Under the pieces are notes generated by a model. That model was not told the DNA's origin, made no database searches, and was given only the letters and a program-made list of their open reading frames with translations. Below are positions 22,880 to 44,285 of a stretch of 64,000 bases of DNA, piece after piece. A program made the position numbers and the translations under genes. The stretch comes from Roseivirga thermotolerans (lineage in GTDB: Bacteria > Bacteroidota > Bacteroidia > Cytophagales > Cyclobacteriaceae), in contig NZ_BNAG01000003.1 of assembly GCF_014653175.1 (NCBI RefSeq), positions 620,001-684,000 of the forward strand, in the 5' to 3' direction. Every line of letters begins with the position of its first letter. Position 1 is the stretch's first letter.

Positions 22880-23727
22880 AAACAAGAAATAGAAAAAGCC
22901 CTTTAGCCCTAAAGCTAATGGGCTTTCTTTTTGTGGTGCTTCTGGTAAGTAGCTGTATTCCCAATGAAAAAATTGTGTACTTACAGAACAAGGAAGACGA
23001 CCCTGCTTTGGCCAATGATACATTGATTGAACTAAAGAGAATTGACTACCGTCTTCAACCCAACGACATTCTTCTGATTAACTTTTTTTCCAAAGAGACC
23101 CAAGCTGTTGAGGATTATTATCCGATTTTTCAGAGAAGAGCCATGATGGGGCTAGGTGGGGGAAATAACAATAATGGAAATAATATCCTCAATGACCCTT
23201 ACATGACTGGTTATCATATCGATAAAAACGGAGAAATAGAAATTAACGGTATAGGTAGAATAAAGGCGGCAGGATTAACTACCGATGAACTAAAGTACAG
23301 CATTGAAGATATAATTAGAACGAAAGATGGTGTAATGGATATTCTGGTTGGGGTTAAGCTGCAAGGAATTCCCTTTACAATTTATGGAGAGGTGGGGTCT
23401 CCTGGTAGTAGAGTAGAAAGAGTTTATGAGCTCACCTTACTGGAGGCCATTGCTACTTCTGGCGATTTGACCTTGAATGCCAATAGGGAACACGTGATTT
23501 TATTGAGAGATTATCCGGATGGTGTTAGAATTCATGAGATTGATGTAACAGGAAGAGCTATCATTCCCACCGAGTACTGGTTTATTCAACCGGATGATGT
23601 GATTTATGTTCCCCCTTTAAAAATTCGTGAGTTAGGTGTTGGTACCAGTGCCTTACAAAACCTCTCAGTAATTGTTTCTGTTATATCCAGTACAACATTG
23701 ATTATTAGTTTATTGACCAGATTCTAA
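22876..23727 (+). CDS. Polysaccharide export outer-membrane lipoprotein (Wza-like)
   Basis: A 283-residue lipoprotein with signal FLFVVLLVSSC (Cys27). The polysaccharide export domain begins at YRLQPNDILLINFF (about residue 57) and contains the central repeat with IDKNGEIEINGIGRIKAAGLT. A single SLBB-type segment follows (about 150-240, FTIYGEVGSPGSRV). The last 25 residues form a hydrophobic helix (VIVSVISSTTLIISLL), as in Wza, where it spans the outer membrane. It is shorter than E. coli Wza, as usual in Bacteroidota. It forms the outer-membrane channel paired with the tyrosine kinase encoded next, with which it shares one base. Confidence 0.9.
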   Translation: MKTRNRKSPLALKLMGFLFVVLLVSSCIPNEKIVYLQNKEDDPALANDTLIELKRIDYRLQPNDILLINFFSKETQAVEDYYPIFQRRAMMGLGGGNNNNGNNILNDPYMTGYHIDKNGEIEINGIGRIKAAGLTTDELKYSIEDIIRTKDGVMDILVGVKLQGIPFTIYGEVGSPGSRVERVYELTLLEAIATSGDLTLNANREHVILLRDYPDGVRIHEIDVTGRAIIPTEYWFIQPDDVIYVPPLKIRELGVGTSALQNLSVIVSVISSTTLIISLLTRF

Positions 23728-26162
23728 TGGCAGGATCCGAATTCGATTTTTTTGATGAAAGCAATACAGGTTCGGGCGGGAGTTCAGGGAATATAGATCC
23801 TGTACTTATTCTTATAAAGGTAATAAGGAACTGGCCGGTAATTGTACTATCCTGTTTGCTAGGTCTGCTGGTGGTATTTATATATCACCGATATACGACC
23901 GAGCGGTATGCGCTGAAAGGATCGATTATGATTCCTGAGGAGAACCCAAACATAGCCTCCCAATTCTTTACCGACTTTATAGGTGGGGGCTTCAGTCCTA
24001 ACTTTCTCAATGAGCTGGAGGTACTGCGGAGTGTAGATATTACTGCTGCGGCTATAGATTCTCTCGATTTTGGTATCGAATATTATTCAAAGGGAAGAAT
24101 AAAAACCATTGAAGAATATAATACGCTTCCGTTTACCATATTTCCTACAGAAGGTCATAAACAGGTCTATAACAAAGAGTTTCTTATCAGCTTTACTGAC
24201 AACAATAGTTTCAGACTTACATTTGCTGATAACGACAATCATGAGAAAAGTGAATTGTATCGTCCTAATAGCCTTATAAGTACGGATGAATACAGTTTCA
24301 CGGTATTCTTCAACCGGACGGTCGATTTAAAAGATAAGAGCTATACTTTTAAATTTCGCGACAAGCAAAGCCTTGTTAATGAGTGGAATAGCCGATTGAA
24401 AGTAGACTATTTACGAGCCTTTACTACTATAGCCGAGTTAAAACTTACCCACAGTGAACCAAAGAAGGCAGCAGCTTTTATTAATACTGTGATGGACGTC
24501 TACAGAGGCTTGGAGCTTAAGCGAAAGGACGATTTAGCTGACAAAACACTATCCTATATAGATCGTGAGTTAAGGATTCTTGATGACACACTTTCTATCT
24601 ATGAAACTAAGTTGGATAGAGTGAAAGTGGAAGAAAAAACCCTTAGTTTAGATAATGTCGGAAGTAAGGTAGAGTCGCAGTTGCTTTCACTGGAACGAAG
24701 AAAAGGAGAGGTGTTAGCCTCAATTCGGCAACTTCAACAGAACCTCGATTTTTTGGCAGATAGTACGAAATTTGAAGAAGCTTTTGTGCCGATCACTGTA
24801 ACTGGCGATGATATGTTTGGCACTTACATTGAGCGTTTGCAGAAGCTATTGGTGGACAGGAGCAAACTTTTGATTACTCTGGCTCCGAAACATAAAATGG
24901 TAAAGGACATTTCTAATGAAATAGACGGCTTAGTCTCTCTGATTAGAAATAGTGCTCAAGTGCAAATATCAGGCTTCAATGAGGAACTAAAACAGATAGA
25001 TAAAGATATTAAAGTAGCTGAGAGGGAGTTTGAGAATTATCCGGAGAAGCAGCGAAAACTAACAGATCTCCAAAGAATATATAATGTTTATGTGAGCATG
25101 TTTCAGTTCTTGAGACAAAGAAGAGCTGAGGCTGGAATTGCCAAGGCTGGAAATGAATCCAATGCTCAAATTGTTGACAAGGCGGTTTCTAATGTAAAGG
25201 CTATTTACCCCAATAAACCATTTAACTATGCTATTGGAGCGGGAGTTGGCTTAGGGCTTCCACTGCTTTTCTTTTTCCTAAGGGAAGTATTGAACGATAA
25301 GGTAGAGTTCAGAAAGCAGATCGAAAAGCTAACCTCAATACCGGTAATTGGTATGATTGGCCATAATAAGTATGAGGGCAACCTTGCAGTGCTTAAGCAT
25401 CCTAAATCGATTATGTCTGAGTCCTTTCGGGCCATTCGATCGAATATGGCGTTTTTTGGAAGAGATCGAAAAATACAGACTGTCTTAGTAACCTCCAATG
25501 CCTCCGGTGAAGGCAAGTCTTTTTGTTCGCTCAACCTAGCTTCCATGTTGGCAGTTTCAGGCAAAAAAACCGTACTGATTGGTTTGGACTTGAGAAAGCC
25601 GAAACTCTATGACGATTTTGGATTGACCAACGACTTTGGAGTTTCCAACTATTTGGCCGGTTTTGTAGATAGGGATAAGATTATTCAAAAGACAGCTTAC
25701 GAAAACCTAGACTTAATAGCTGCCGGGCCTGTGCCTCCTAACCCCGCTGAGTTGCTCATTTCAGATGAAATGAAGGAACTGATCCAGTACCTAAAGGATC
25801 ATTATGAACAGGTGATTATAGATACACCACCGGTGGGTATCGTAGCCGACACATTCAACCTTACTCATCTGGCCGACCTCAATATTTTTGTGGTTCGCCA
25901 GAACTATACAGTAAAACAGGTATTTCCATTTTTGAATGATATTACCAAAAAAGGTATTGTGAAAAATGCCACTTTACTACTCAATGACTTTAAGGTAAAC
26001 AGAGGCTATGGCTATGGTTACGGTTATGGCTACGGCTATGGTTACGGTTATGGCTATGGCTATGGCTATGGTTATGGCTACGGTAATTATGGTGGAGGCT
26101 ACTATTCGGATGAGGAAACCCAAAGTAGTAAAGGGAATTTTTTAAAGAGATTTAAACGTTGA
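23727..26162 (+). CDS. Wzc-like polysaccharide co-polymerase and BY-kinase with Gly-Tyr tail
   Basis: An 811-residue inner-membrane protein. The Wzz domain lies between two membrane helices (about 36-54 and 501-520), with long coiled-coil segments at about 255-470. The cytoplasmic kinase (about 550-755) has Walker A NASGEGKS (K597), Walker A' VLIGLDLRKPK (D621) and Walker B VIIDTPP (D699), the BY-kinase set. Autophosphorylation of C-terminal tyrosines controls chain export. Here the tail is extraordinary: residues 760-785 are 13 consecutive Gly-Tyr pairs, followed by NYGGGYYSDEE and a basic end. Usual BY-kinases have a cluster of roughly four to eight tyrosines. It overlaps the wza-like gene by one base and the exporter permease by four. 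Confidence 0.93.
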   Translation: MAGSEFDFFDESNTGSGGSSGNIDPVLILIKVIRNWPVIVLSCLLGLLVVFIYHRYTTERYALKGSIMIPEENPNIASQFFTDFIGGGFSPNFLNELEVLRSVDITAAAIDSLDFGIEYYSKGRIKTIEEYNTLPFTIFPTEGHKQVYNKEFLISFTDNNSFRLTFADNDNHEKSELYRPNSLISTDEYSFTVFFNRTVDLKDKSYTFKFRDKQSLVNEWNSRLKVDYLRAFTTIAELKLTHSEPKKAAAFINTVMDVYRGLELKRKDDLADKTLSYIDRELRILDDTLSIYETKLDRVKVEEKTLSLDNVGSKVESQLLSLERRKGEVLASIRQLQQNLDFLADSTKFEEAFVPITVTGDDMFGTYIERLQKLLVDRSKLLITLAPKHKMVKDISNEIDGLVSLIRNSAQVQISGFNEELKQIDKDIKVAEREFENYPEKQRKLTDLQRIYNVYVSMFQFLRQRRAEAGIAKAGNESNAQIVDKAVSNVKAIYPNKPFNYAIGAGVGLGLPLLFFFLREVLNDKVEFRKQIEKLTSIPVIGMIGHNKYEGNLAVLKHPKSIMSESFRAIRSNMAFFGRDRKIQTVLVTSNASGEGKSFCSLNLASMLAVSGKKTVLIGLDLRKPKLYDDFGLTNDFGVSNYLAGFVDRDKIIQKTAYENLDLIAAGPVPPNPAELLISDEMKELIQYLKDHYEQVIIDTPPVGIVADTFNLTHLADLNIFVVRQNYTVKQVFPFLNDITKKGIVKNATLLLNDFKVNRGYGYGYGYGYGYGYGYGYGYGYGYGYGNYGGGYYSDEETQSSKGNFLKRFKR
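26004..26081 (+). repeat. Thirteen tandem hexamers encoding Gly-Tyr in the BY-kinase tail
   Basis: Thirteen copies of GGYTAY run without a break. Codons alternate among GGC/GGT and TAT/TAC, so the protein repeat is exact while the DNA is not a pure microsatellite. In-register gain or loss of hexamers would change the number of tyrosines without shifting frame. Confidence 0.95.
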
Positions 26163-27007
26163 GACAGGAAAGAGTAAAAACTGTAATTGAACCAAGATCT
26201 GCCTGGTTCGATCTAAAGTTTCGTGAAATAGCTCAATACAAAGACTTACTCTTCTTATTTGTCAGGAGAGATCTTGTAGCCCAATACAAGCAGACAATAC
26301 TAGGCCCATTATGGTATTTTATTCAGCCCATTTTAACCACACTTACCTACACGCTGATTTTTGGGAATGTAGCAGGACTCTCAACTGATGGATTGCCAAA
26401 AATGTTATTCTACATGGCTGGTGTTACATGTTGGCGTTACTTTTCTGACTCTCTGAACAAAACCTCTAATACATTCACCCAGAACGCTCAGATTTTTGGG
26501 AAGGTGTACTTTCCAAGGGCTATTATGCCCATTTCTATTACGATTACCAATTTGGCCATGTTTGGTATTCAGTTGCTCCTTTTCTTTGGCTTTTATGCAT
26601 TTTATGTCATTACCGGGCAGTTTAGTTTGAATCTACAGCCAGAGTTGTTTTTGTTTCCACTACTTATTGTAATAATGATGTTGTTGGGTCTTGGCTTTGG
26701 TTTTATTCTTTCTGCCCTTACAACTAAATATAGAGACCTGAAATTTTTGATTACTTTCGGAGTACAGCTACTTATGTATGCTACTCCGGTCATCTATCCT
26801 CTATCTAGCTTACCTGCTAAGTACAAGCCTTTTATTTTGGCCAACCCAATGACTCCTATTATTGAGACGTTTAGGTTCATGTTTCTGGGTTCAGGTAGCA
26901 TGAATTATATGCATTTGGGTTACTCAATTGTGTTTGCAATAGTACTGTTTCTTATTGGCCTCATTATTTTCAATAGAACAGAGAAGAATTTTATGGATAC
27001 TGTATGA
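26159..27007 (+). CDS. ABC-2 type polysaccharide exporter, permease (Wzm-like)
   Basis: A 282-residue permease with about six membrane segments. The N-terminal cytoplasmic part contains the family signature VRRDLVAQYKQTILGPLWY, followed by FIQPILTTLTYTLIFG. The segment LLMYATPVIYPLSSLPAKYK is typical of O-antigen and capsule ABC permeases. It begins with TTG, overlapping the stop of the kinase gene. Together with the ATPase encoded downstream it moves finished or lipid-linked polysaccharide across the inner membrane. Confidence 0.93.
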   Translation: MRQERVKTVIEPRSAWFDLKFREIAQYKDLLFLFVRRDLVAQYKQTILGPLWYFIQPILTTLTYTLIFGNVAGLSTDGLPKMLFYMAGVTCWRYFSDSLNKTSNTFTQNAQIFGKVYFPRAIMPISITITNLAMFGIQLLLFFGFYAFYVITGQFSLNLQPELFLFPLLIVIMMLLGLGFGFILSALTTKYRDLKFLITFGVQLLMYATPVIYPLSSLPAKYKPFILANPMTPIIETFRFMFLGSGSMNYMHLGYSIVFAIVLFLIGLIIFNRTEKNFMDTV

Positions 27008-27088: not shown

Positions 27089-28369
27089 GTGAGTGACATA
27101 GCGATTAAAGTAGAGAACCTTTCCAAGCAATACCGACTAGGTGTTGTTGGTACCGGCACCATAAGTCACGATTTGAATCGTTGGTGGGCCAGAATTCGAG
27201 GCAAGGAGGATCCCTTCCTTAAAATTGGCGAAACTAACGACAGAAGTAAGGCAGGAAACTCGGACTATGTATGGTCTTTAAAGGATATAAACTTTGAAGT
27301 AAGGCAAGGCGAGGTACTAGGAATTATTGGTAAGAATGGAGCCGGTAAAAGCACGCTGCTTAAGATTTTATCTAAAGTTACCGGTCCTACTACCGGGAAA
27401 ATAACCGCTTTTGGCAGAATAGGAGCTTTGCTGGAAGTGGGTACGGGCTTTCATCCTGAACTTACCGGAAGAGAAAACATTTTTTTAAATGGGGCCATTC
27501 TGGGTATGACCAAGGCCGAGATTAAATCCAAACTTGATGAAATAGTAGATTTCTCTGGCTGTGCACGCTATGTAGATACGCCCGTAAAACGATATTCTTC
27601 TGGAATGAAGGTGCGCCTGGCATTTGCTGTTGCAGCTTTCTTGGAGCCTGAGATTCTGATTGTTGATGAAGTGTTAGCTGTGGGAGATGCAGAGTTTCAA
27701 AAAAAGGCCATTGGTAAAATGCAAGACGTGAGCAAAGGGGAAGGTCGAACCGTTTTGTTTGTGAGTCATAATATGGAGAGTGTAAAAAAACTCTGCACTC
27801 GCGCAATTGTATTAGAGAATGGACAAGTGAAGTTTGATAGTGATGCTAATTCAGCAGTTAATTTTTATGCAAATGCACAGAAGCTAAAACTCAATTTACA
27901 TAGTAATTCAGTTTGGAATTTTGAAGATGCTCCAGGGAATGAGAATATAAAAATTCTTAATATTAATGTTTCTCCTATAAATGGTGATGTTCTATCGATC
28001 AGTTCAGGGATAAAAATTGAGTATAGTTTCTATAATAGAAAAGAAGATATTAATCTAGCTACTACAGTACAGGTTACAAACCTCAAAGATGAAATCGTGA
28101 TCCATCAAGGACACAAACTAGCCTATAATCCGAAGTCAAGAAGAGGGGTTTATACAATATCGTTCCATATACAGCCCTATATACTTAATGCTGGACACTA
28201 CAAACTAGGTCTTATCTTTGGAGAAAATGCTAGGTACGTACTGTGGAAGGTAGAAGAGTTTATTGCGTTTGAACTATCTTCAGAGTTCGAAAAAGATTTG
28301 CCTAAGGTATTACCAGGGACACTCTATTTAGATATGAGTCCTGAAGTGAATTTCGAACCAGTAGGATAG
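27089..28369 (+). CDS. ABC exporter ATPase with C-terminal carbohydrate-binding domain (Wzt-like)
   Basis: A 426-residue protein starting with GTG. Residues about 1-245 form the ATPase: Walker A GIIGKNGAGKST, signature YSSGMKVRLAF, Walker B ILIVDEVLAVGD, H-loop VSHNME, and a long insert ahead of Walker A. Residues about 270-426 form a beta-rich extra domain like the Wzt C-terminal domain, which in known O-antigen exporters recognises the chemical cap at the non-reducing end of the chain. Its presence predicts that export depends on a terminal modification. The following gene encodes a methyltransferase, which could make such a cap. A gap of 81 bases separates it from the permease; no feature is evident there. 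Confidence 0.92.
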   Translation: MSDIAIKVENLSKQYRLGVVGTGTISHDLNRWWARIRGKEDPFLKIGETNDRSKAGNSDYVWSLKDINFEVRQGEVLGIIGKNGAGKSTLLKILSKVTGPTTGKITAFGRIGALLEVGTGFHPELTGRENIFLNGAILGMTKAEIKSKLDEIVDFSGCARYVDTPVKRYSSGMKVRLAFAVAAFLEPEILIVDEVLAVGDAEFQKKAIGKMQDVSKGEGRTVLFVSHNMESVKKLCTRAIVLENGQVKFDSDANSAVNFYANAQKLKLNLHSNSVWNFEDAPGNENIKILNINVSPINGDVLSISSGIKIEYSFYNRKEDINLATTVQVTNLKDEIVIHQGHKLAYNPKSRRGVYTISFHIQPYILNAGHYKLGLIFGENARYVLWKVEEFIAFELSSEFEKDLPKVLPGTLYLDMSPEVNFEPVG

Positions 28370-28380
28370 AATATGTTTGT

Positions 28381-29265
28381 ATGAAAAGAATACTGAATTT
28401 TTTAAAAAAGGTCCCTGTTATAAATAGAATTATTGATTCAATTCTTGAAAAAAGAAGAAGTTATTTAATTCTTAAAAAAGGTGAGAACCTTAAAAGCTAC
28501 GATTATTTAGCTGTGTACTTGACCAAGTTAGATAAAGCGCATGCCAAGAAAGATCGTGATCTTAAAAAACTCCATAAAGACCTCAATAAACTAAGGAAGC
28601 AACAAGTTGAATCATGGAATTCTTTTGTCTATTGTAAAGGGTATTTTTATCAAGGGTATAAGAGAGTGGGTATCCATGGGATTAAACCGACTGAGGCAAG
28701 AATGAAGAGCTATGATGTATATGATTTCTTTAACGCTAATGGTAGGGTATTAGATATCGGCTCAAATAGTGGCTTCCTTTCGATTTACTTATCTGATTAT
28801 TACAAAGAAGTTGTAGGGATTGAACTAAACCCTTATCTGATAAGGATGGGTGAATGTGTTAAAAATCATCTTGGAGTTCGAAATGTTAATTTTATTAAGG
28901 CAGACTTCATGAGCTACAGTTTCAATAATCAGTTTGACGCGGTTTTCTCACTTTCGAATCACTTTACGATAGATGGTAATTTGAACATGAGTTTTGAGGA
29001 TTATATATATAAGATATACAATTTACTCAATAATGGAGGAGTACTTTTTTTTGAGAGTCATAATATTAATGGAGATGATAGTGATCTTGATCAAAAGTTC
29101 CTTATCGCAAGCCAATATTTTGATTTAAAGAAGTACAAAATGGTGAAGGCTTTTTATCCAGCGGATATCGATAAGCTATTTGCAGTGTTCATTAAGAAAC
29201 CTTCTATATCTGAAAAATACTCATCTTTTAGTTTGGATAAGGCGAGGCACGAATATGAGTATTGA
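28381..29265 (+). CDS. SAM-dependent methyltransferase with N-terminal charged helix
   Basis: A 294-residue class I methyltransferase. The first 85 residues are very rich in Lys and Glu and predicted helical or coiled coil (KAHAKKDRDLKKLHKDLNKL). The SAM-binding motif is VLDIGSNSGFLSIYL (about residue 120), with the acidic ribose ligand in VVGIELNP. Two roles fit the context: capping the chain end for recognition by the Wzt-like domain encoded just before, as methyl-bearing caps do in other ABC-dependent O antigens, or methylating the phosphoramidate group whose pathway starts two genes later. Campylobacter phosphoramidate loci also carry methyltransferases just upstream of the kinase gene. 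Neither role is proven. Confidence 0.82.
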   Translation: MKRILNFLKKVPVINRIIDSILEKRRSYLILKKGENLKSYDYLAVYLTKLDKAHAKKDRDLKKLHKDLNKLRKQQVESWNSFVYCKGYFYQGYKRVGIHGIKPTEARMKSYDVYDFFNANGRVLDIGSNSGFLSIYLSDYYKEVVGIELNPYLIRMGECVKNHLGVRNVNFIKADFMSYSFNNQFDAVFSLSNHFTIDGNLNMSFEDYIYKIYNLLNNGGVLFFESHNINGDDSDLDQKFLIASQYFDLKKYKMVKAFYPADIDKLFAVFIKKPSISEKYSSFSLDKARHEYEY

Positions 29266-29301: not shown

Positions 29302-30603
29302 TTGAATCAGTTTAAGGATACGGTAAAAAGCTTTTTGAAGTCTTTAGGTATTTGGAGCTTCTACATATCCTTCAATGAGTATCAACGCAATCGAAGTTTA
29401 AGTAAGACTCAAAGGGCTCAGCTTAGGAGAATAAAGTCTGCTGGACAGGTTAAAGTGTTTTTCCTAGTAATTCATGACACGATTTGGAAGTATGATTCTC
29501 TCTTCCGCCTCTTGCAAGAAGATAGTAGGTTTTTACCTTATATTGTTGTAATTCCTTTCGTTAGAAACGGTCAACCAGATATGGAGCTTTACAAGAAAGT
29601 TGTAAAGTTTTTTGGAGATAAAAACTATCCTAGGTTGTCTGTATACAATAGGGATAATAATGAATGGTTGGATTTACAAGCTACTTATCAACCAGACATC
29701 GTTTTTTTCACCAATCCACATCGACTTACTTTTGAGAAGTATTACTCACAAATATATAATAGCGATGTGCTTACTTGTTACGTACCATATGCATTCGTAG
29801 TAATCCATTCATTACGAATTCACTATGCACAGGAAATTCATAGGCGACTATGGAAGTACTTCGTTGAAACAAAAACCCATGGGAAGTATGCCACAAGTTT
29901 CTTAGGTAAGTTTAATAACCGTGTGGTTGTTACAGGTTACCCAGCGTTAGATACTATTTTTGATTCCAGCTATTCGCCAAAAGATGTTTGGAAGGTGAAG
30001 GATAGGAAAAGCGTCAAGAGAATTATTTGGGCACCTCACCATAGTATTGAAGGTCAAGGGAGTAAATTGGATTACTCTTGTTTTACTCTCTATGCCGATT
30101 GGTTTATAAAACAACTTAGAAATAGAAGTGATATTCAAATTGCCTTCAAACCGCACCCGCTATTAAAGGAAAAGCTATATAAGCACCCCGATTGGGGTAA
30201 GATGAGAACCGATAGCTATTATAGGAGTTGGCAAAATCTACCCAATGGTCAACTGGAGGAAAGCGAGTATTTAGATCTTTTCTATTATTCGGATGCAATG
30301 GTCATGGATAGCGCTTCATTTATGGTAGAGTATCTATATTTCCATAAGCCCATAATGTTTCTAGTACATGACGAATTGGTATCAGAAAGGTTCAATTCGT
30401 TTGGTAGAGAGGTTTTCTCACATCTATATCATGGTAGAAATAGTAATGATATCAGTGATTTTATAGATGATATTGTAATATCTGGCAATGATAGTCTAAA
30501 GAATCAAAGGGAGCATTTCTTTTTTAACGAGGTACTTCCCAAGGGCGAGAAAACGGCCAGTGAAAGAATATATCATGAATTGAAAAACGTTTTATGTCCT
30601 TGA
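29302..30603 (+). CDS. CDP-glycerol glycerophosphotransferase-like transferase
   Basis: A 433-residue protein starting with TTG. The C-terminal half has the marks of the TagB/TagF family: IIWAPHHS, the AFKPHPLL motif, and AMVMDSASFMVEYLYFHKPIMFL, matching the family's D-S-x-S-hydrophobic-kP region. Members move polyol-phosphate units from a CDP donor onto a polymer at the membrane. No CDP-glycerol or CDP-ribitol synthesis gene is in the window. Three genes for a CDP-phosphoramidate donor follow directly, so this enzyme is the best local candidate for transferring the phosphoramidate. That link is inference. It overlaps the next gene by 10 bases. Confidence 0.72.
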   Translation: MNQFKDTVKSFLKSLGIWSFYISFNEYQRNRSLSKTQRAQLRRIKSAGQVKVFFLVIHDTIWKYDSLFRLLQEDSRFLPYIVVIPFVRNGQPDMELYKKVVKFFGDKNYPRLSVYNRDNNEWLDLQATYQPDIVFFTNPHRLTFEKYYSQIYNSDVLTCYVPYAFVVIHSLRIHYAQEIHRRLWKYFVETKTHGKYATSFLGKFNNRVVVTGYPALDTIFDSSYSPKDVWKVKDRKSVKRIIWAPHHSIEGQGSKLDYSCFTLYADWFIKQLRNRSDIQIAFKPHPLLKEKLYKHPDWGKMRTDSYYRSWQNLPNGQLEESEYLDLFYYSDAMVMDSASFMVEYLYFHKPIMFLVHDELVSERFNSFGREVFSHLYHGRNSNDISDFIDDIVISGNDSLKNQREHFFFNEVLPKGEKTASERIYHELKNVLCP

Positions 30604-32999
30604 AATCAGAGATCAACTATAAACTTACCGGAACAAAAGCCGAGACTCTTCATATTTTGTCTGAGGCCGGCTATAATGTGCCGAAGATTTACTTTTTTAC
30701 TACCAAAGATTGGCATACTAATAAGCAGAAGGTCATTCTTGAAATTATAAGACAATTTAAAGACAGTGGCAAATTGGCTGTCAGAAGCAGCTCAATCGCA
30801 GAAGATACTATTAACTCTTCAATGGCTGGGGCCTTTACCAGTCTACTAAATGTTTCCTGTAAGGAGTCTGATTTAACTGCCGCCATAAATCGGGTAATAG
30901 GTTCATATAATGAAGAAGAGTCAAATCAGGTTTTGGTTCAACCAATGGTGACAAATGTGGTAATGAGTGGAGTGGTAATGACTCAGGTTCTAGACGATGG
31001 GTCTCCTTACTACGTGATTAACTATGATGATAAGTCTGGTTTGACAGATACTGTAACGAGTGGTAGCTCAATTAACAAAACTGTATATATATATAATGGA
31101 GTAAAGGAAGAAGATTTTGACTCTGAACTACTGCTTAAAGTACTTAAATTGATTAGAGAGCTTCAGTCAACATTCCCCGATATTCCACTTGATATAGAGT
31201 TTGCAATTGACTCTGAAGGTTTAGTACACCTTTTACAGGTACGTAGGATAGTTACGGTTGATAAATGGGATAAGGCCATAATAAGTCAGGTATCGTCCAG
31301 AATGATATACTTGAGGCAATTTATTCATGAGGCCTTCAAGCCCCGTCCAGATCTATATGGCAGCACCACATTGCTGGGATTTATGCCAGACTGGAATCCT
31401 GCAGAGATGATTGGAGTATTACCTCACCCTCTTGCTAGGTCGCTTTACCGAAAGTTAATTACCCAATCAACTTGGCAACTGGCTCGCGAGCAAATGGGGT
31501 ATCGCAAAATGCCCAAAATGGACTTAATGGTTTCACTTTTCGGAAGGGTTTATATAGACGTAAGAAAGAGTATCAACTCTTTTCTACCGGACGGATTACC
31601 GGGAGGTATAAGTGAGAAATTAGTAAATGCATTTGTGGATAGACTCAATCGTAACCCTCACCTTCATGACAAGATAGAATTTGAAATAGTTCATACTGCC
31701 TTTGATTTCTGTTTCGAGGAAGACTTTGAATCGAGATATAGCGGTACTCTTAACAGGGAGGAGTTTTTGGTGTACAAAAGTTTACTGAGAAAACTTACCG
31801 AAGATGCAGTCATAGATAAATTTAATAGTTCTCTTAATCGTTCACTAAGAACCATAGACCTTCTGAAAGAAGCCCAGTTATTTCAGATAGGTTCTTCAGA
31901 AGAAAAGAACTCTTTTTTACTCGCAAGTTGTATAAGTAAATTAATTGATGAATGTATTGAGTTGGGGACATTACCATTCTCAATTTTAGCAAGACATGGT
32001 TTCATAGCAGAGTCACTCTTGAGGTCTGCAGTGAGAAAAAATGCTATTTCGAAAGAACGACTATTAGAATTCAGAAGAAGTATAATTACTATTTCTGGTA
32101 AGATGAGTGAGGATTATTCGTCAGTTATTGAGGGTAGATTAAATAAAGATACTTTTCTTCAAACCTATGGTCACTTAAGACCTAGTAGCTACGACATACT
32201 CTCTCCTAATTATTGTAATAGACCCGATTTGTTTTCTGAAGCTCGCGTTATGAGTGGAAAGGAATGCAAGTCTGAATTCAAACTAACAAACAAAGAAGAG
32301 TCTCAATTGAATGTACTGATTTATGAAAGTGGGTTTAATGGGATTGATGCTAAAAGACTTATGCATTATGCAGAACAGTCTATAAAAGGCAGAGAGTATG
32401 CCAAGTTTATTTTTACCAAGCATTTGTCAGATATTCTTGAGTTAGCAGCTAAATGGGGTGAGTTAAAGGGATTTTCTAGGTATGAGGTTTCAATGCTGGA
32501 GATTGAGGACATCCTGAATATGTTATTTGAACCTCTCACAAATGACATTAGACCCTATTATCAAGATAAAATTTCAAAAGCGATCGAAAACTACGATATA
32601 GCTTCTTCTTTTAAGTTGAGTTACCTCATTCGATCTGTTCGTGATGTCCATATTGTTCCTATGCAACGAAGTGCAGCTAACTTTATAGGAAATACCAGAA
32701 TAGAGGCTGAGGTTGTACTAATTGAAGCAAGTAGCAGAAGTGCTCCAGACATGGAGGGAAAAATAGTATGCATTGAAGGAGCAGACCCTGGTTACGATTG
32801 GATATTTACTCGTAAAATAGGCGGGCTTGTAACCAAATATGGAGGTGCCAACTCTCATATGGCCATTAGAAGTGCTGAGTACGGTATTCCGGCAGCAATA
32901 GGGTGTGGAGAGCAACCTTTTGAACGAGTATTGAGAGCCAGGAAGTGCTTATTGGATTGTAAAAGCAATCGACTTGAGCCCATAACTATTCAAAGCTAA
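30594..32999 (+). CDS. L-glutamine kinase, PEP-synthase-like (Cj1418 type)
   Basis: An 801-residue protein with the split architecture of dikinases. An N-terminal ATP-grasp domain (about 1-225) has LAVRSSSIAEDTINSSMAGAF and the metal-site region HLLQVRRI. A central all-alpha region of about 450 residues follows. The C-terminal mobile phosphohistidine domain has GGANSHMAIRSAEYGIPAAIG with His755. It is not pyruvate phosphate dikinase: the PEP barrel is absent. In Campylobacter jejuni Cj1418 has this layout and phosphorylates the amide nitrogen of L-glutamine using ATP, giving AMP and phosphate. The next two genes match Cj1417 and Cj1416 in the same order, which is the main reason for the specific call. 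Confidence 0.8.
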   Translation: MSLKSEINYKLTGTKAETLHILSEAGYNVPKIYFFTTKDWHTNKQKVILEIIRQFKDSGKLAVRSSSIAEDTINSSMAGAFTSLLNVSCKESDLTAAINRVIGSYNEEESNQVLVQPMVTNVVMSGVVMTQVLDDGSPYYVINYDDKSGLTDTVTSGSSINKTVYIYNGVKEEDFDSELLLKVLKLIRELQSTFPDIPLDIEFAIDSEGLVHLLQVRRIVTVDKWDKAIISQVSSRMIYLRQFIHEAFKPRPDLYGSTTLLGFMPDWNPAEMIGVLPHPLARSLYRKLITQSTWQLAREQMGYRKMPKMDLMVSLFGRVYIDVRKSINSFLPDGLPGGISEKLVNAFVDRLNRNPHLHDKIEFEIVHTAFDFCFEEDFESRYSGTLNREEFLVYKSLLRKLTEDAVIDKFNSSLNRSLRTIDLLKEAQLFQIGSSEEKNSFLLASCISKLIDECIELGTLPFSILARHGFIAESLLRSAVRKNAISKERLLEFRRSIITISGKMSEDYSSVIEGRLNKDTFLQTYGHLRPSSYDILSPNYCNRPDLFSEARVMSGKECKSEFKLTNKEESQLNVLIYESGFNGIDAKRLMHYAEQSIKGREYAKFIFTKHLSDILELAAKWGELKGFSRYEVSMLEIEDILNMLFEPLTNDIRPYYQDKISKAIENYDIASSFKLSYLIRSVRDVHIVPMQRSAANFIGNTRIEAEVVLIEASSRSAPDMEGKIVCIEGADPGYDWIFTRKIGGLVTKYGGANSHMAIRSAEYGIPAAIGCGEQPFERVLRARKCLLDCKSNRLEPITIQS

Positions 33000-33617
33000 A
33001 TGAGGATTGGGATTACAATGAGAATTACAAGGGCAGATTCCTACGAGGAATATAGGGACTCCATTGCCCAAGATTGGAATAAGTTCATGGCTTCTAAGTT
33101 CTCAAAGGATCAGTATATGTTCATTCCTAATATAGAAGATTCGGTTACAACCTTTGTCCGAGACTGGGGAATAGACATGATTTTTTTGTCTGGTGGAGAA
33201 GATATTGGTACCGACAAATCAAGAGATAATACTGAAACAATGCTGATTAAGTATGCTTTAGATTCCAAGATACCTTTAATAGGCGTTTGCAGAGGTATGC
33301 AAATGATTAATGCTTTTTTTGGGGGTAATACTGTAGATGGAGGAGAGACATTCAGAAAAAGACACGTTGCGCATGACCATGAGATTTTCTTCTTAAAGAA
33401 AAGAAGAGTGGTCAATTCGTATCACTCTCGAAAAATCACGGAGAATAGTCTTGGCAAAGGGTTGTCTGCTTTGGGCTTTGACTCAGTGGATGGAACGGTT
33501 GAGGCCTTGGGATATAAGCATGTATTGGGACTAATGTGGCATCCCGAAAGAGAGAGGGATATAGATAAAGATACAGCAGATATTATTATAAATCACATTC
33601 GTGAATATGGAAAATAA
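33000..33617 (+). CDS. Gamma-glutamyl-CDP-amidate hydrolase, class I amidotransferase fold (Cj1417 type)
   Basis: A 205-residue class I glutamine-amidotransferase-fold hydrolase. The triad is visible: nucleophile Cys97 in IGVCRGMQMIN, and His181 and Glu183 in GLMWHPERE. It resembles gamma-Glu-GABA hydrolase (PuuD, peptidase C26), but no polyamine genes are nearby. In C. jejuni the homologue Cj1417 splits CDP-L-glutamine into cytidine diphosphoramidate and glutamate. The ATG follows the stop of the kinase gene with no spacer, and the gene overlaps the nucleotidyltransferase gene, so the three are translationally linked. Confidence 0.8.
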   Translation: MRIGITMRITRADSYEEYRDSIAQDWNKFMASKFSKDQYMFIPNIEDSVTTFVRDWGIDMIFLSGGEDIGTDKSRDNTETMLIKYALDSKIPLIGVCRGMQMINAFFGGNTVDGGETFRKRHVAHDHEIFFLKKRRVVNSYHSRKITENSLGKGLSALGFDSVDGTVEALGYKHVLGLMWHPERERDIDKDTADIIINHIREYGK

Positions 33618-34359
33618 AGCAATTATCCTTGCCGCAGGAAGAGGTTCAAGAATGAAGGAACATACTGAGACGAAACCCAAGTGTCTTACTGAACTAGCTG
33701 GAAAAACCTTATTAGATTGGCAAATTGAGGCGCTGAGAAAGGCTGGGATAGAAGATGTCTATGTGGTAAGAGGTTACAGGAGTGAATTGATAAATCGGCC
33801 AGGATTACAGTATATAAAAAATGAAAGATGGGCAGAGACTAACATGGTCGCTTCGCTTTTTTGTTTTGACTCTTCAATAAGAGAACCTACCATTATATCA
33901 TACTCAGATATTGTCTATCATAAATCTCATATCGAAGAGCTTAAGAAAGTTGAGTCAGATATAACGATTACTGCCGATAAGGAATGGTTCGCACTTTGGA
34001 AGCTTAGATTTGAGAATCCTTTTGAAGACGCTGAGACATTCATTACCAAAGATGGAAGATTAAATGCTATAGGAGGTAAAACTCATCACTTCAATGATAT
34101 TGAAGCTCAATATATGGGCTTGATTAAGTTATCTCCCAAAGGGTGGGGAATTGTACGGTCTGTTTATGATGAGTTGCCTCAAGAGAGGAAGGATAATATT
34201 GATATGACTTCACTACTAAATTTACTTCTTGAAAAAGGAGTGCCAATTAATGTGGTTTATGTTAAGGGTCAGTGGTGTGAGGTAGACTCTTATGATGATG
34301 TATTATGTTATGAAAGAGAGTTGAATAAAAACCCGGAATGGGCACATGATTGGCGATGA
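33607..34359 (+). CDS. CTP:phosphoglutamine cytidylyltransferase (Cj1416 type)
   Basis: A 250-residue GT-A-fold nucleotidyltransferase. The nucleotide-binding signature AIILAAGRGSRMKE starts the protein, followed by KPKCLTELAGKTLLDWQ. The Asp of IISYSDIVY is the metal ligand position, and WCEVDSYDD near the end gives the second. In C. jejuni Cj1416 couples CTP and glutamine phosphate to CDP-L-glutamine, the substrate of the hydrolase encoded just before. Sequence alone would also allow a sugar-phosphate or choline-phosphate nucleotidyltransferase; gene order decides. An alternative GTG start lies two codons earlier. Confidence 0.8.
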   Translation: MENKAIILAAGRGSRMKEHTETKPKCLTELAGKTLLDWQIEALRKAGIEDVYVVRGYRSELINRPGLQYIKNERWAETNMVASLFCFDSSIREPTIISYSDIVYHKSHIEELKKVESDITITADKEWFALWKLRFENPFEDAETFITKDGRLNAIGGKTHHFNDIEAQYMGLIKLSPKGWGIVRSVYDELPQERKDNIDMTSLLNLLLEKGVPINVVYVKGQWCEVDSYDDVLCYERELNKNPEWAHDWR

Positions 34360-34886
34360 AATATAAATATCTATCAACACAAGTGCCTCGAGTCAAAATT
34401 GACTATTCATATTCGGTTTTTGAGGGGGAGAGGTTTTTGGATGCTTGGTTTACAAGTAGGCAAGTAGTACAAGGTAATAATGATTCTGTTTGTTACAAAC
34501 TAAATCGAATAACTGGCTCTAGCACCGAAGGTTTGTTTTTAGAGTGGATAGGTATTAAAAACAACAAAGGTGAACTCAACAAAGAAAAATTAAACCTACT
34601 AGTCAAGAGGTTCGAGGTTACAAAGAAGATATACTCATCCTATGACGAAAATTTTAGGCCTAAGGATAAGAGCTTGTACAACGAGTATAGGTTGTATCAG
34701 CTCTTTAGCTTAGTCTTATGTAAGGAGTATGCTGATTCAAACCGACTTCCACTGCTAAATGCTCTTCTTAAACTAAATGATATTGTTTTGAGTGTGTATG
34801 AGATAGGTGAGGAATTGGATGTGGAATTGCTAAGAGAAACGTTAGCTCAAGAAGTAAGATTTGTCTTAGAACTTAGAAGGGATTAA
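34356..34886 (+). CDS. Unknown protein linked to the phosphoramidate genes
   Basis: A 176-residue protein; I recognise no family. The start is the ATG overlapping the preceding stop as ATGA. The N-terminal half is predicted beta-rich (VKIDYSYSVFEGERFLDAWFTS), the C-terminal half helical and Leu-rich (LPLLNALLKLNDIVLSVYE), and it has no signal peptide or membrane segment. It sits between the cytidylyltransferase and a formyltransferase-like gene with no spacing on either side, so it probably serves the same pathway. The expected phosphoramidate kinase (Cj1415, adenylyl-sulfate-kinase-like) is not recognisable here: there is no P-loop. Confidence 0.7.
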   Translation: MKYKYLSTQVPRVKIDYSYSVFEGERFLDAWFTSRQVVQGNNDSVCYKLNRITGSSTEGLFLEWIGIKNNKGELNKEKLNLLVKRFEVTKKIYSSYDENFRPKDKSLYNEYRLYQLFSLVLCKEYADSNRLPLLNALLKLNDIVLSVYEIGEELDVELLRETLAQEVRFVLELRRD

Positions 34887-35645: not shown

Positions 35646-36065
35646 TTGAGTTTTTGTAGAGAGTTGTTGTTGCCTAAAATAGAAGATATTCGTGGCAACC
35701 TTACTTTTTTTGAGGTGGGTAGTAACTTTCCTTTCGAAATTAAAAGGGTGCATTGGATTTATGATGTACCTGGAGATGAGGAAAGGGGAGGTCACGCACT
35801 CAGACATAGCCATGAGGTGATTATAGCCTTGTCCGGAAGTTTTGATGTAGAGGTATTCAACGGCAAAGACTTTGATATATTTCCTCTTAGAAGATCATAC
35901 AAAGCTCTATATGTTCCTAACCTCTGTTGGAGAAAATTGACGAACTTCTCCACTAATTCACTGGCACTAATAGCCTCTTCAAACTTTTTTGATAAGACAG
36001 AATATATCTATTCAATAAAAGAACTTGCAAATGACTCGGAGTTTAAGAAAAAGTACGGTCTTTGA
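35646..36065 (+). CDS. FdtA/QdtA-like cupin, first of a tandem pair, altered active site
   Basis: A 139-residue single-domain cupin of the dTDP-4-oxo-6-deoxyglucose 3,4-ketoisomerase family (FdtA/QdtA/WxcM-like), starting with TTG. Shared features are IRGNLTFFEV near the start, VHWIYDVPGDEERGGHA, and GSFDVEVFNG. Typical members read G-G-H-A-H at the catalytic site followed by a Gln; here it is GGHALRHSHEV, so the second His is Leu and the Gln position differs. It may be a partner subunit, a paralogue with another specificity, or degenerate. The next gene is an intact homologue that overlaps it by about 40 bases. Confidence 0.78.
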   Translation: MSFCRELLLPKIEDIRGNLTFFEVGSNFPFEIKRVHWIYDVPGDEERGGHALRHSHEVIIALSGSFDVEVFNGKDFDIFPLRRSYKALYVPNLCWRKLTNFSTNSLALIASSNFFDKTEYIYSIKELANDSEFKKKYGL

Positions 36066-36483
36066 TTGTTCTATTCTAGATTTAGATAAGGCTCATACCT
36101 TGAAAGGTAATCTTACGGTTGTTGAGAACCTGAAGAATATACCGTTCGAAATAAAACGAGTTTACTATCTCTATGATGTTCCTGGTGGGAGTGAGAGAGG
36201 TGGACACGCTCATATAGAGTTACAACAATATCTAATTGCTGCTAGCGGAAGCTTTGATGTTAAATTAAGTGATGGTACTAATACAAGAACAGTTTGTCTG
36301 AATAGACCATATTATGCCCTTCACATTGTTCCTGGAATTTGGAGAGAATTACAGAACTTTAGTTCGGGTTCAATCTGTCTTGTGCTGGCTTCTCACCCCT
36401 ATGACGAAACCGATTATGTTCGAAGTTTTGATGAGTTTATCGTAGCAAAAGAGAGAAATAATGATCATATGCGTTGCAGGTAA
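36025..36483 (+). CDS. dTDP-4-oxo-6-deoxyglucose 3,4-ketoisomerase (FdtA/QdtA-like)
   Basis: A 152-residue cupin with the full family pattern: LKGNLTVVENL, RVYYLYDVPGGSERGGHAHIELQQYLIAASGSFDV, and WRELQNFSSGSICLVLAS. The GGHAH motif and the following Gln-Gln are canonical. The enzyme moves the keto group of dTDP-4-keto-6-deoxyglucose from C4 to C3 so that C3 can be aminated. Whether it yields the gluco (Qui3N) or galacto (Fuc3N) series cannot be read by eye. The first ATG lies inside the previous gene; a second in-frame ATG is two codons later. The rmlA and rmlB genes for its substrate are not in the window. Confidence 0.87.
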   Translation: MQMTRSLRKSTVFDCSILDLDKAHTLKGNLTVVENLKNIPFEIKRVYYLYDVPGGSERGGHAHIELQQYLIAASGSFDVKLSDGTNTRTVCLNRPYYALHIVPGIWRELQNFSSGSICLVLASHPYDETDYVRSFDEFIVAKERNNDHMRCR

Positions 36484-37648
36484 ACATGCTCTAGCTGTAG
36501 AAAGCCTAAAGTATCTTGTTAAAGAATTTCCAGAGTTTAATTACTGTGTAGTTCCATCTGATACTGATGATGGTTGTACTTCTTGGCAACCATCACTTAA
36601 ATATGAGTCTCATAAGTTGGGTATTCCTAGTATAAAATTAGAAGAGGTCTATCCATTGGATAAACTAATATTTTTCTCCTTTCAATTTGATAGAATATTA
36701 AAGCCGGGATTGTTTAGTTCAAATATGCTCTTTAATATTCATTATTCACTTCTGCCATTTTACAAAGGGATGTATCCAGCCGTACATCCAATTTTAAATG
36801 GTGAAGAACAAACAGGAGTGACTCTTCATAAGATAGATCATGGTATTGATACCGGGGATATAATTGATCAAAAGATTGTGAAGATTGATCACTGTGATAC
36901 CAGCCAAGATTTATATCTGAAGCTTACCGAGGCTGGTGTTCAATTATTTAAAGAAAATGCTAGAAAACTATTGTTGAATAAGTTTGTAGCTTCTTCACAG
37001 CCGAATCGTTTAGGTTCCTATTATTCTGTTAACTCGTTGAATTTTAGTAACCTGTGTATAGACTTTAATAAAACGGCAATAGAGGTCCATAATCAGTTTA
37101 GAGCCTTTTCATTTAGGCAGTACCAGTTACCAACTTTTAATGGAAGGAGAATATATAAGACATCTGTAACCAATGAAAGAAGCGTACAAAAACCTGGCTC
37201 AATAATAACTGATGATTCAGTTAAAACTGTGATATCATCAGTCGATTATAACCTTGAGTTGTATAAAGATTATTACGATGAACTTTGGTTGGCTTGTATC
37301 AATGGTAGTCTTTCTCAGGTAAAGACTTATGCTTCAAGAGTATATGATATTAACTTAAGGAATAATCGGGGTTGGAGTGCGATTATACTGGCAGTCTTCC
37401 ATGGACATAAGGAAATAGTTCAACATCTGATTTCATTGGGGGCTGATGTCAATTGTACTAACTATAGGGGAACAACCCTCCCAATGTATGCTCTCACTTA
37501 TTTCAAAAATAGTGGAGATCCCAGCATGTTACATTTGTTAGGAGCATATGAACTAGATATCAAGTTAGAAGATGAATCTGGTAAAAGTATATTTGACTAC
37601 TGTGATGAAACACAAGCGGTTCTTCTCCAAAAAGCGTTCAAGTCTTAA
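36461..37648 (+). CDS. dTDP-3-amino-sugar N-formyltransferase with C-terminal ankyrin repeats (QdtF-like)
   Basis: A 395-residue, three-part enzyme. Residues about 1-180 are the formyltransferase core with the catalytic Asn-x-His in FNIHYSLLPFYKG (N92, H94) and Asp in HKIDHGIDTGDII (D130). A small middle domain follows (about 185-265). Residues about 275-390 are ankyrin repeats, clearest in NRGWSAIILAVFHGHKEIVQHLI. In Providencia QdtF has exactly this layout; it transfers a formyl group from N10-formyl-tetrahydrofolate to the 3-amino group of dTDP-Qui3N, and its ankyrin part binds a second sugar nucleotide. The neighbouring ketoisomerase and aminotransferase supply that substrate. It overlaps the ketoisomerase gene by 23 bases. 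Confidence 0.87.
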   Translation: MIICVAGKHALAVESLKYLVKEFPEFNYCVVPSDTDDGCTSWQPSLKYESHKLGIPSIKLEEVYPLDKLIFFSFQFDRILKPGLFSSNMLFNIHYSLLPFYKGMYPAVHPILNGEEQTGVTLHKIDHGIDTGDIIDQKIVKIDHCDTSQDLYLKLTEAGVQLFKENARKLLLNKFVASSQPNRLGSYYSVNSLNFSNLCIDFNKTAIEVHNQFRAFSFRQYQLPTFNGRRIYKTSVTNERSVQKPGSIITDDSVKTVISSVDYNLELYKDYYDELWLACINGSLSQVKTYASRVYDINLRNNRGWSAIILAVFHGHKEIVQHLISLGADVNCTNYRGTTLPMYALTYFKNSGDPSMLHLLGAYELDIKLEDESGKSIFDYCDETQAVLLQKAFKS

Positions 37649-37657
37649 TCCTCCAAA

Positions 37658-38752
37658 ATGGACATAAAATTTTTGTCGTTCGATAAGATTAATAACCAGA
37701 TTGATCAAGAGTGTTTAGAGGCATATAAAAGAGTGTTTGATTCCAGATGGTACATTTTAGGGGAAGAAGTAAATACCTTTGAGTCAGAGTATGCTTTATT
37801 CTCTGAAACTAAATATGCGGTTGGTGTATCAAATGGTTTAGAGGCTTTGCACCTCTCTTTGCGAGCTTTAGGCGTTGGAGAGGGTGATGAAGTTATCGTT
37901 CCTTCCAATACCTTCATCGCCACCGTTTTAGCGGTAAGCTATACAGGGGCTACTCCTGTATTTGTCGAACCTCGAGAAGACACATTCAACATTGACCCTG
38001 AGAAAATAGAAGGAGCAATCACGAGTAGAACGAAAGCCATTATTCCGGTTCATCTTTATGGGCAAGCCTGTGAAATGAAGCAGATCATGGAAATAGCAGA
38101 TAACTATAAGATATATGTTGTTGAAGATAATGCTCAAGCTCAGGGCGCAACTTTCAATAATAGAAAAACGGGGAGTTTTGGCCATGTCAATGCAACCAGT
38201 TTCTATCCTGGTAAAAATCTTGGTGCATTAGGGGATGCTGGTGCTATAACAACAAATTGTTCAGAATTATATCAATCGCTTAAGACAATAAGAAACTATG
38301 GCTCAGAAAAGAAATATCATAATCAAGTAATCGGATATAACGCTAGGCTAGATGAGATTCAGGCAGCATTCCTTTCTGTAAAACTTAAGTATTTGAACGA
38401 CTGGAATAAGGAACGAAAAAAGATTGCTAAATGGTACAATGAAGGTATTATTTCAGACAAGGTTATTAAAAATGAAATTGCTCAAGGAGCTACTTCAGTC
38501 CATCATCTATACGTGATTCGAACAGATCGAAGACCAGAACTACAACAATTTTTATCTCAAAAAGGAGTTGAAACACTCATTCACTATCCTATTCCTCCGC
38601 ATCTTCAAGGGGCTTATAAATACTTAGGCTTTGCAGAAGGAGCTTTTCCAATTGCTGAGAAACTTGCGCGTGAGGTTTTAAGCTTACCACTTTATATTGG
38701 AATGAAGAAGGATGAAGTGGATTATGTATGTGATTTAATTAATCGGTTTTGA
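37658..38752 (+). CDS. DegT-family sugar 3-aminotransferase (FdtB/QdtB-like)
   Basis: A 364-residue fold-type I PLP enzyme of the DegT/DnrJ/EryC1 family. Motifs are GVSNGLEALHLSLRALGVGEGDEV, the PLP-ring Asp in VVEDNAQAQGA (D157), and the Schiff-base Lys in FYPGKNLGALGDAG (K186). The phosphate-binding arginine region YNARLDEIQAAFL follows. FdtB and QdtB, which aminate C3 of the 3-keto sugar using glutamate, have this form. It comes ten bases after the N-formyltransferase gene, completing the ketoisomerase, aminotransferase and formyltransferase set. Confidence 0.9.
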   Translation: MDIKFLSFDKINNQIDQECLEAYKRVFDSRWYILGEEVNTFESEYALFSETKYAVGVSNGLEALHLSLRALGVGEGDEVIVPSNTFIATVLAVSYTGATPVFVEPREDTFNIDPEKIEGAITSRTKAIIPVHLYGQACEMKQIMEIADNYKIYVVEDNAQAQGATFNNRKTGSFGHVNATSFYPGKNLGALGDAGAITTNCSELYQSLKTIRNYGSEKKYHNQVIGYNARLDEIQAAFLSVKLKYLNDWNKERKKIAKWYNEGIISDKVIKNEIAQGATSVHHLYVIRTDRRPELQQFLSQKGVETLIHYPIPPHLQGAYKYLGFAEGAFPIAEKLAREVLSLPLYIGMKKDEVDYVCDLINRF

Positions 38753-44280: not shown

Positions 44281-44285
44281 GATAT

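Follow-up and report, generated by a model that had tools for sequence, protein, structure and literature searches.

Phosphorus-nitrogen bonds are rare in biology, and a polysaccharide locus of the Bacteroidota species Roseivirga thermotolerans raises the question of whether this organism makes such a bond and places it on a surface glycan. The locus lies in a stretch of 64,000 nucleotides, hereafter the window (contig NZ_BNAG01000003.1, positions 620,001 to 684,000), which is part of contig 3 of a 4.2-Mb genome in 12 contigs that is 99.99% complete. Three genes at window positions 30594-34359 had been read, in an initial annotation, as a Campylobacter-type capsule phosphoramidate pathway. The system of comparison is that of Campylobacter jejuni, for which the excerpts of the literature used here report that Cj1415-Cj1418 turn glutamine, ATP, and CTP into cytidine diphosphate (CDP)-phosphoramidate 3'-phosphate and that deletions of Cj1421 and Cj1422 abolish the modification (PMC11800397); Cj1418 is described as the glutamine kinase (PMC10971088) and Cj1416, with its family placement, as the phosphoglutamine cytidylyltransferase (PMC12275187). 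Our answer is that the locus is real and conserved and most likely encodes a phosphoramidate donor pathway: a known pathway in altered form, in which the fourth enzyme was not found and an unexplained accessory module is present.

Identity of the three enzymes

The product of the first gene is built as a dikinase, with an ATP-grasp-type N-terminal domain, a family-specific middle, and a phosphohistidine swivel domain; Pfam recognizes PPDK_N and PEP-utilizers only, and no phosphoenolpyruvate (PEP)/pyruvate barrel. NCBIfam model NF004508 matches nearly its full length at 899 bits (cut-off 501), and the runner-up, a model for PEP synthase, scores 60 bits; this difference and the missing barrel speak against a PEP synthase. 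Active-site conservation was read from alignments of homologues drawn from the kinase loci described below and chosen by score and length. His755, within the motif GGANSHMAIR, is invariant in 89/89 kinase homologues (300 bits or more; window included, as in the following alignments), and the protein is the sole PEP-utilizers match found in the genome. NF004508 (PRK05849, "hypothetical protein") is matched by the window kinase, yet the model carries no function; we take Cj1418 to be a member of the family it represents. From the curated cut-off and the dikinase layout, the protein is assigned to the glutamine-kinase type and is predicted to phosphorylate glutamine on nitrogen.

The second product has a class I amidotransferase fold, and its Cys97/His181/Glu183 triad is invariant in 59/59 homologues (60 bits or more, up to 260 residues). 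Its best NCBIfam model is NF045546, gamma-glutamyl-CDP-amidate hydrolase, at 102.6 bits, compared with 28.5 bits for the PuuD model, which speaks against PuuD. From the name of the NCBIfam model, we assume that Cj1417 carries out this hydrolase step in C. jejuni. The third product is an NTP_transf_3 protein in Pfam and a nucleotidyltransferase of the MobA/LicC kind; among the solved structures in a PDB search, a CTP:phosphocholine cytidylyltransferase, 1jyk, is closest to it. It bears the LicC/COG1213-type signature (LAAGRGSR...KPK), with G13, G15, R17, K27, and D103 invariant in 63/63 homologues (120 bits or more, up to 330 residues). In NCBIfam it is matched best by a model for archaeal sugar-1-phosphate nucleotidyltransferases of the GlmU type, with 72 bits, which falls far short of the cut-off of 292; the identity of 1jyk and the intact residues speak against a sugar nucleotidyltransferase. 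The family matches and active-site conservation of the trio are far above chance.

The initial annotation thus named the three enzyme kinds, the dikinase layout, the signature residues, and their numbering correctly. The outcome that it had named as refuting, best matches to PEP synthase, PuuD, and a sugar nucleotidyltransferase, for the most part did not occur: the kinase and the hydrolase match other models best, and the cytidylyltransferase is closest to 1jyk in the PDB, although a GlmU-type model is its best in NCBIfam. The three intact + strand open reading frames (ORFs) that it had called adjacent and overlapping are indeed adjacent. The kinase gene starts 10 bases within the ORF upstream of it. 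The kinase and hydrolase genes do not overlap but abut, TAA being followed directly by ATG, and the cytidylyltransferase gene overlaps the hydrolase gene by 17 bases if its listed GTG start is taken. The order also agrees with C. jejuni, where, in the excerpts of PMC3907429, cj1416 lies upstream of cj1415 and cj1421 upstream of cj1420, which gives the transcription order Cj1418-Cj1417-Cj1416.

Recurrence and fusion of the trio in other genomes

The set of three genes recurs across many phyla. A species-level scan (one genome per species) returned at least 594 matched stretches, from which the best 80 of at least 555 loci were kept; the figure of 555 counts similarity at E 0.001, a loose threshold that may admit other PEP-utilising enzymes. 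These best 80 encode proteins 35-63% identical to the window kinase over most of its length, the closest among the matches listed being from a Salinivirgaceae metagenome-assembled genome (63%) and Brumimicrobium oceani (61%), which fits the label Bacteroidota of the initial annotation. Of 87 labelled loci (86 fetched plus the window, one duplicate having been dropped), 84 carry the kinase label, 65 the cytidylyltransferase label, 59 the hydrolase label, and 48 that of a protein of adenosine 5'-phosphosulfate (APS)-kinase type; the two accessory proteins introduced below, FMT244 and U178, were labelled in 30 and 20, respectively. The set contains many short contigs, mechanical ORF picking missed some genes, and fused proteins received one label.

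Members of the trio are also found fused. Kinase and hydrolase form a single protein in loci L013 and L048, and the kinase carries a cytidylyltransferase-like domain in eight loci. In the latter (L008, L010, L081, L089, L090, and L099-L101, the last three being the same places as L002, L003, and L005), it is an extra N-terminal nucleotidyltransferase-like domain of ~230 residues, and a separate cytidylyltransferase was labelled as well in 6/8.

NF004508 was matched above its cut-off in 5/296 sampled genomes of the window's phylum. In the window's taxonomic family the kinase was found in 3/118 genomes, the window genome being counted in both samples, and it was not found in the one other genome of the same genus among those listed. 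In the GTDB genus of Pseudomonas fuscovaginae, 21/229 genomes carry the kinase by the same curated model. A 2022 review calls the glutamine kinase C. jejuni-specific in the part consulted (PMC9561416), and among the matches listed in the open-licence PubMed Central literature we found no description of the trio outside Campylobacter.

Several individual loci deserve mention. The search of viral contigs for kinase loci confirmed none; the fusion at L013 (652-3687) sits in a GenBank record named "Bacteriophage sp." (MT837632.1) that by eye resembles a bacterial chromosome, with ORFs like those for thioredoxin reductase, ribose-phosphate pyrophosphokinase, and a Mur ligase. At L098 (8454-10889), a stop codon breaks the kinase frame in one genome, which could be decay or an assembly error. 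Flagellin or flagellar ORFs adjoin, by eye, the trio loci L099, L100, L042, and L143; in some bacteria the tag may decorate flagellin glycans.

The fourth enzyme and the donor

Donor synthesis in C. jejuni involves one more enzyme, Cj1415, which we take to be a CDP-amidate kinase of the APS-kinase family. An APS-kinase-family search of the window genome returned only one partial match, of 22.2 bits over positions 2-42 of 152, in an ORF that by eye looks like a signal recognition particle GTPase; the same family search gave matches in 11/14 control genomes. The genome of Brumimicrobium oceani, which has a LicD-family gene near its trio, likewise gave no APS-kinase match in a search that did match three other genomes. 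As a complete pathway, the Campylobacter-type reading of the initial annotation is therefore not borne out, the Cj1415-type enzyme not having been found in the genome and the hydrolase lying under the NF045546 cut-off.

Since the genome yielded no CDP-amidate kinase, the donor is probably cytidine diphosphoramidate (CDP-NH2) itself, and we infer that at least some members go no further than CDP-NH2, which would then serve as the direct donor. For the window organism, use of the donor without a 3'-phosphate seems to us somewhat the better bet. Other trio loci may add the 3'-phosphate. In one of them a single protein (L060:9834-11279) combines an APS-kinase-type domain with a sulfotransferase domain, which fits a 3'-phosphorylated donor resembling 3'-phosphoadenosine 5'-phosphosulfate (PAPS) in such loci. 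Sulfotransferase-like neighbours were labelled in 11/34 well-flanked loci with an APS-kinase-type gene versus 2/20 without, a weak difference (Fisher p 0.10) in labels from home-made profiles that may drift.

An accessory module of two proteins

Directly downstream of the trio lie two genes that recur with it. The first, U178, is listed with 178 residues from a TTG at 34350; the ATG of the shorter form overlaps the cytidylyltransferase stop codon (ATGA). Neither Pfam nor NCBIfam matches U178 at E 0.001, and a PDB profile search gave nothing significant (best E 0.18). In its AlphaFold model (pLDDT, a predicted local-distance score, 87), every listed element is a helix. The second, FMT244, also modelled at pLDDT 87, shares with the Formyl_trans_N enzymes (methionyl-tRNA, sugar, and glycinamide ribonucleotide formyltransferases) the domain above its cut-off, His136, and Asp171; no NCBIfam model reaches its cut-off. 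Formyltransferases use an Asn-His-Asp catalytic set, of which the Asn and the His are visible in the alignment with solved structures. FMT244 differs from these enzymes in that an invariant His aligns with the catalytic Asn, giving His134/His136/Asp171 instead of Asn-His-Asp in 32/32 sequences, and in a conserved C-terminal HPxLKH motif.

The two proteins tend to occur together. Of the 90 kinase loci compared, the pair is present in 25, U178 alone in 5, FMT244 alone in 7, and neither in 53 (p 2e-11), and the two are fused in 5 loci. In the 296 phylum genomes, U178 was found in four (156, 52, 33, and 23 bits), all among the five with the kinase, and FMT244 exceeded 240 bits in the same four; four further FMT244 matches in kinase-free genomes scored 59-65 bits and were taken, by score alone, for ordinary formyltransferases. 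In the 229 Pseudomonas-genus genomes, FMT244 was found in nine (E 1e-15 or better, two of them at 94-100 bits) and U178 in eight (one at 28.9 bits); each of these genomes is one of the 21 with the kinase. At the thresholds used, none of the kinase-free genomes in the two samples (296 + 229) had U178 or a high-scoring FMT244. Some of the sampled genomes had supplied seed rows: the window genome and at least one Pseudomonas genome for both alignments, and three phylum genomes for that of FMT244. The p-values for co-occurrence are only guides, since the genomes are not independent. The module is undescribed among the matches listed in the open-licence literature.

What the module does may be approached through a methyltransferase family that recurs in 11/90 kinase loci (321 bits and above, the next score being 102) and that also occurs in the Pseudomonas operons L140 and L142, together with the APS-kinase type, kinase, hydrolase, and cytidylyltransferase. 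FMT244 occurs in 0/11 of these loci versus 32/90 overall, a weak exclusion (p 0.005, uncorrected for kinship) that falls short of significance when the 54 well-flanked loci are taken alone (0/5, p 0.14). It hints that FMT244/U178 replaces methylation. Phosphorus-nitrogen groups without a methyl group are on record for the lipopolysaccharides of Xanthomonas and Shewanella (excerpts of PMC3907429).

A different last step would be that a kinase from some other family adds a 3'-phosphate to CDP-NH2 and a PAPS-like transferase then carries out the transfer, with U178 or FMT244 perhaps replacing Cj1415. This view shares its core with direct use of CDP-NH2 and differs in the last steps, and the likelihoods attached to the two are not shares of one whole; we regard it as unlikely. 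It gains from the frequency of APS-kinase-type genes in kinase loci and from the fusion of U178 to APS-kinase-type proteins in three of them (L014, L066, and L073), which would place U178 near the 3'-phosphorylation step. U178 is helical, however, without a P-loop by eye, and it occurs with the APS-kinase type more often than in its place (in 22/30 U178 loci among the 90); these observations speak against U178 in the role of the CDP-amidate kinase. Nor did the APS-kinase-family searches find a Cj1415-type gene in the genome.

The transferase candidate and the polysaccharide locus

The ORF into which the kinase gene reaches encodes a protein of teichoic-acid type (Table 1). It shares the PF04464 family with TagF/TarL above the Pfam cut-off but falls far below the cut-off of the curated TarL model (36.7 bits, cut-off 1000), and the only solved relative found is TarL 8va1, a weak match (E 2.6e-5). 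Relatives of this protein occur in kinase loci L099, L100, and L008; a more distant PF04464 protein adjoins the kinase in L016, and in L076, L053, L040, and more loci a PF04464-type protein precedes the gene of APS-kinase type. The PF04464-type label comes from a home-made iterated profile, and a Pfam check of six labelled proteins found PF04464 in those of L076, L053, L040, L059, and L061 and not in that of L047. CDP-alcohol transferases are another recurrent neighbour (6/34 well-flanked loci with the APS-kinase type, 3/20 without). In other Campylobacter species, orthologues of Cj1416-Cj1418 occur without orthologues of the transferases, as far as the excerpts of PMC3907429 go. On position alone, the upstream protein is the likeliest transferase, an assignment that we put forward tentatively and with somewhat less than even confidence.

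The polysaccharide setting proposed by the initial annotation is supported by Pfam, which places export, sugar, and glycosyltransferase genes around the trio. Main ORFs on the + strand run from ~21.5 to 62.5 kb of the window, and many are polysaccharide genes.

Table 1. Positions of the genes discussed, in window coordinates
Feature	Positions	Strand	Basis or remark
Poly_export protein (export)	22876-23727	+	Pfam; near start of + strand run
Wzc-like GNVR/AAA_31 protein (export)	23727-26162	+	Pfam
ABC-2 permease (export)	26159-27007	+	Pfam
ABC ATPase (export)	27089-28369	+	Pfam
S-adenosylmethionine (SAM) methyltransferase	28381-29265	+	Pfam Methyltransf_25; family label in 7/87 loci
Candidate phosphoramidate transferase, CDP-glycerol glycerophosphotransferase family, 433 aa	29302-30603	+	PF04464 41.5 bits, cut-off 22.1
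Glutamine-kinase-type dikinase, Cj1418-like, 801 aa	30594-32999	+	Pfam; NCBIfam NF004508; His755
Gamma-glutamyl-CDP-amidate hydrolase-like protein, Cj1417-like, 205 aa	33000-33617	+	NF045546 best model; triad
Phosphoglutamine cytidylyltransferase-like NTP transferase, Cj1416-like, 252 aa	33601-34359	+	Pfam NTP_transf_3; 1jyk
U178, helical protein, 176 aa from ATG	34356-34886	+	No family match; AlphaFold
FMT244, formyltransferase fold, 244 aa	34887-35621	+	Pfam Formyl_trans_N 36.4 bits, cut-off 26.1
Genes for amino sugars (two of FdtA type, ankyrin-repeat formyltransferase, DegT aminotransferase)	35646-38752	+	Pfam

The methyltransferase upstream of the transferase candidate belongs to a different family from the one that recurs in other kinase loci. 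Elsewhere in the locus, the Wzc-like protein has a long tail of Gly-Tyr repeats at its end, and downstream of the two tandem FdtA-type genes lies a formyltransferase with C-terminal ankyrin repeats (36461-37648), which presumably resembles the TDP (thymidine diphosphate)-3-aminoquinovose N-formyltransferases. A row of HMGL-like, CTP_transf_3, and HAD proteins at 42727-45591, possibly for an unusual acid sugar activated with cytidine monophosphate (CMP), has by eye a similar counterpart in L124 (9966-12829), after a PF04464-type protein.

This setting bears on a second alternative, that the kinase acts on another amide or amine and that the product of the locus is another phosphorus-nitrogen compound or an exported small molecule and not a glycan tag. 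Two loci with no obvious glycan genes in the stretches examined lend it some colour as possible small-molecule pathways: on an A. vitis plasmid (L012, 7905-12994) the trio stands beside a LysE exporter (by annotation) and a CDP-alcohol transferase, and in L145 (7463-13672) kinase and hydrolase occur with an ATP-grasp enzyme, a CDP-alcohol transferase, and, by eye, an exporter. The window trio, however, lies inside a long polysaccharide locus, and the hydrolase and cytidylyltransferase that accompany its kinase point to the same chemistry, which makes this alternative distinctly improbable here. That the trio are remnants, or a misassigned PEP synthase, PuuD, and sugar nucleotidyltransferase, as generic Pfam names and the public annotation of relatives ("pyruvate, phosphate dikinase", "gamma-glutamyl-gamma-aminobutyrate hydrolase family protein") would have it, is already contradicted by the intact active-site residues, the kinase scores, the missing PEP barrel, and the conserved order and fusions, and has next to no likelihood.

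Discussion

Taken together, the results resemble the C. jejuni pathway for O-methyl phosphoramidate (MeOPN) of the capsule in having the same three enzyme kinds in the same order in a polysaccharide locus (excerpts of PMC11800397 and PMC3907429), and differ from it in three respects: no Cj1415-type CDP-amidate kinase was detected in the genome, the conserved genes U178 and FMT244 are added, and the transferase candidate is of teichoic-acid type. We propose that the kinase would phosphorylate the amide nitrogen of glutamine via phospho-His755, that the cytidylyltransferase would join N-phosphoglutamine to CMP with CTP as the source, and that the hydrolase would remove the gamma-glutamyl group to leave CDP-NH2. 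As the probable donor, CDP-NH2 would serve a CDP-dependent phosphotransferase, for which the upstream PF04464 protein is the best candidate, in moving the phosphoramidate group onto one of the sugars in the exported polysaccharide. The pair U178 and FMT244 would form an accessory module acting on the donor or on the transferred group, FMT244 perhaps as the counterpart of the recurrent methyltransferase, with which it was never found in the loci examined. Synthesis of CDP-NH2 by the trio is, in our judgment, very probable; its use on a surface glycan is probable, and so is the scheme as a whole, with direct use of the donor and an accessory module on donor or group.

Several observations weigh against this scheme. 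The hydrolase, at 102.6 bits, stays under the NF045546 equivalog cut-off of 250, as do all 14 other homologues scanned that lie near or are fused to a kinase (9 at 71-126 and 5 at 87-102 bits). Orthology to Cj1416-Cj1418 is judged from curated models, fold, gene order, and partners, and is best called putative; the PDB matches listed for the three proteins include no Cj protein. The partial APS-kinase match, at 22.2 bits, formally exceeds the family cut-off of 21.1, and the search of the window genome with a query of the APS-kinase type from phosphoramidate loci, which gave no match, had no positive control. As for the transferase candidate, 5/296 phylum genomes without the kinase have relatives of it at 378-437 bits, one of them beside an IspD-like ORF by eye, and the kinase-linked relatives form no supported clade in a tree, though they may have a single origin. 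The idea that PF04464-type proteins mark loci lacking the APS-kinase type was also rejected, since they are not enriched there (9/20, as compared with 10/34 loci that have this type, p 0.38).

A bolder version of the proposal holds that U178 and FMT244 tailor the phosphorus-nitrogen donor, that FMT244 attaches something different from a methyl group to the phosphoramidate (formyl or another one-carbon unit, for instance), and that a teichoic-acid-type transferase works directly from the CDP-linked phosphoramidate with no 3'-phosphate. We hold this full combination to be speculative, with the chances clearly against it.

The fourth enzyme that was not found and the accessory module make the locus more interesting. 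With no CDP-amidate kinase detected, the question of the donor can be put to a direct test, and enzymology has a precise target in the U178/FMT244 module; if the bolder version is true, the surface glycans of bacteria would have a chemically new decoration. If even some of the kinase-bearing genomes make phosphoramidate glycans, the modification would be widespread in environmental bacteria.

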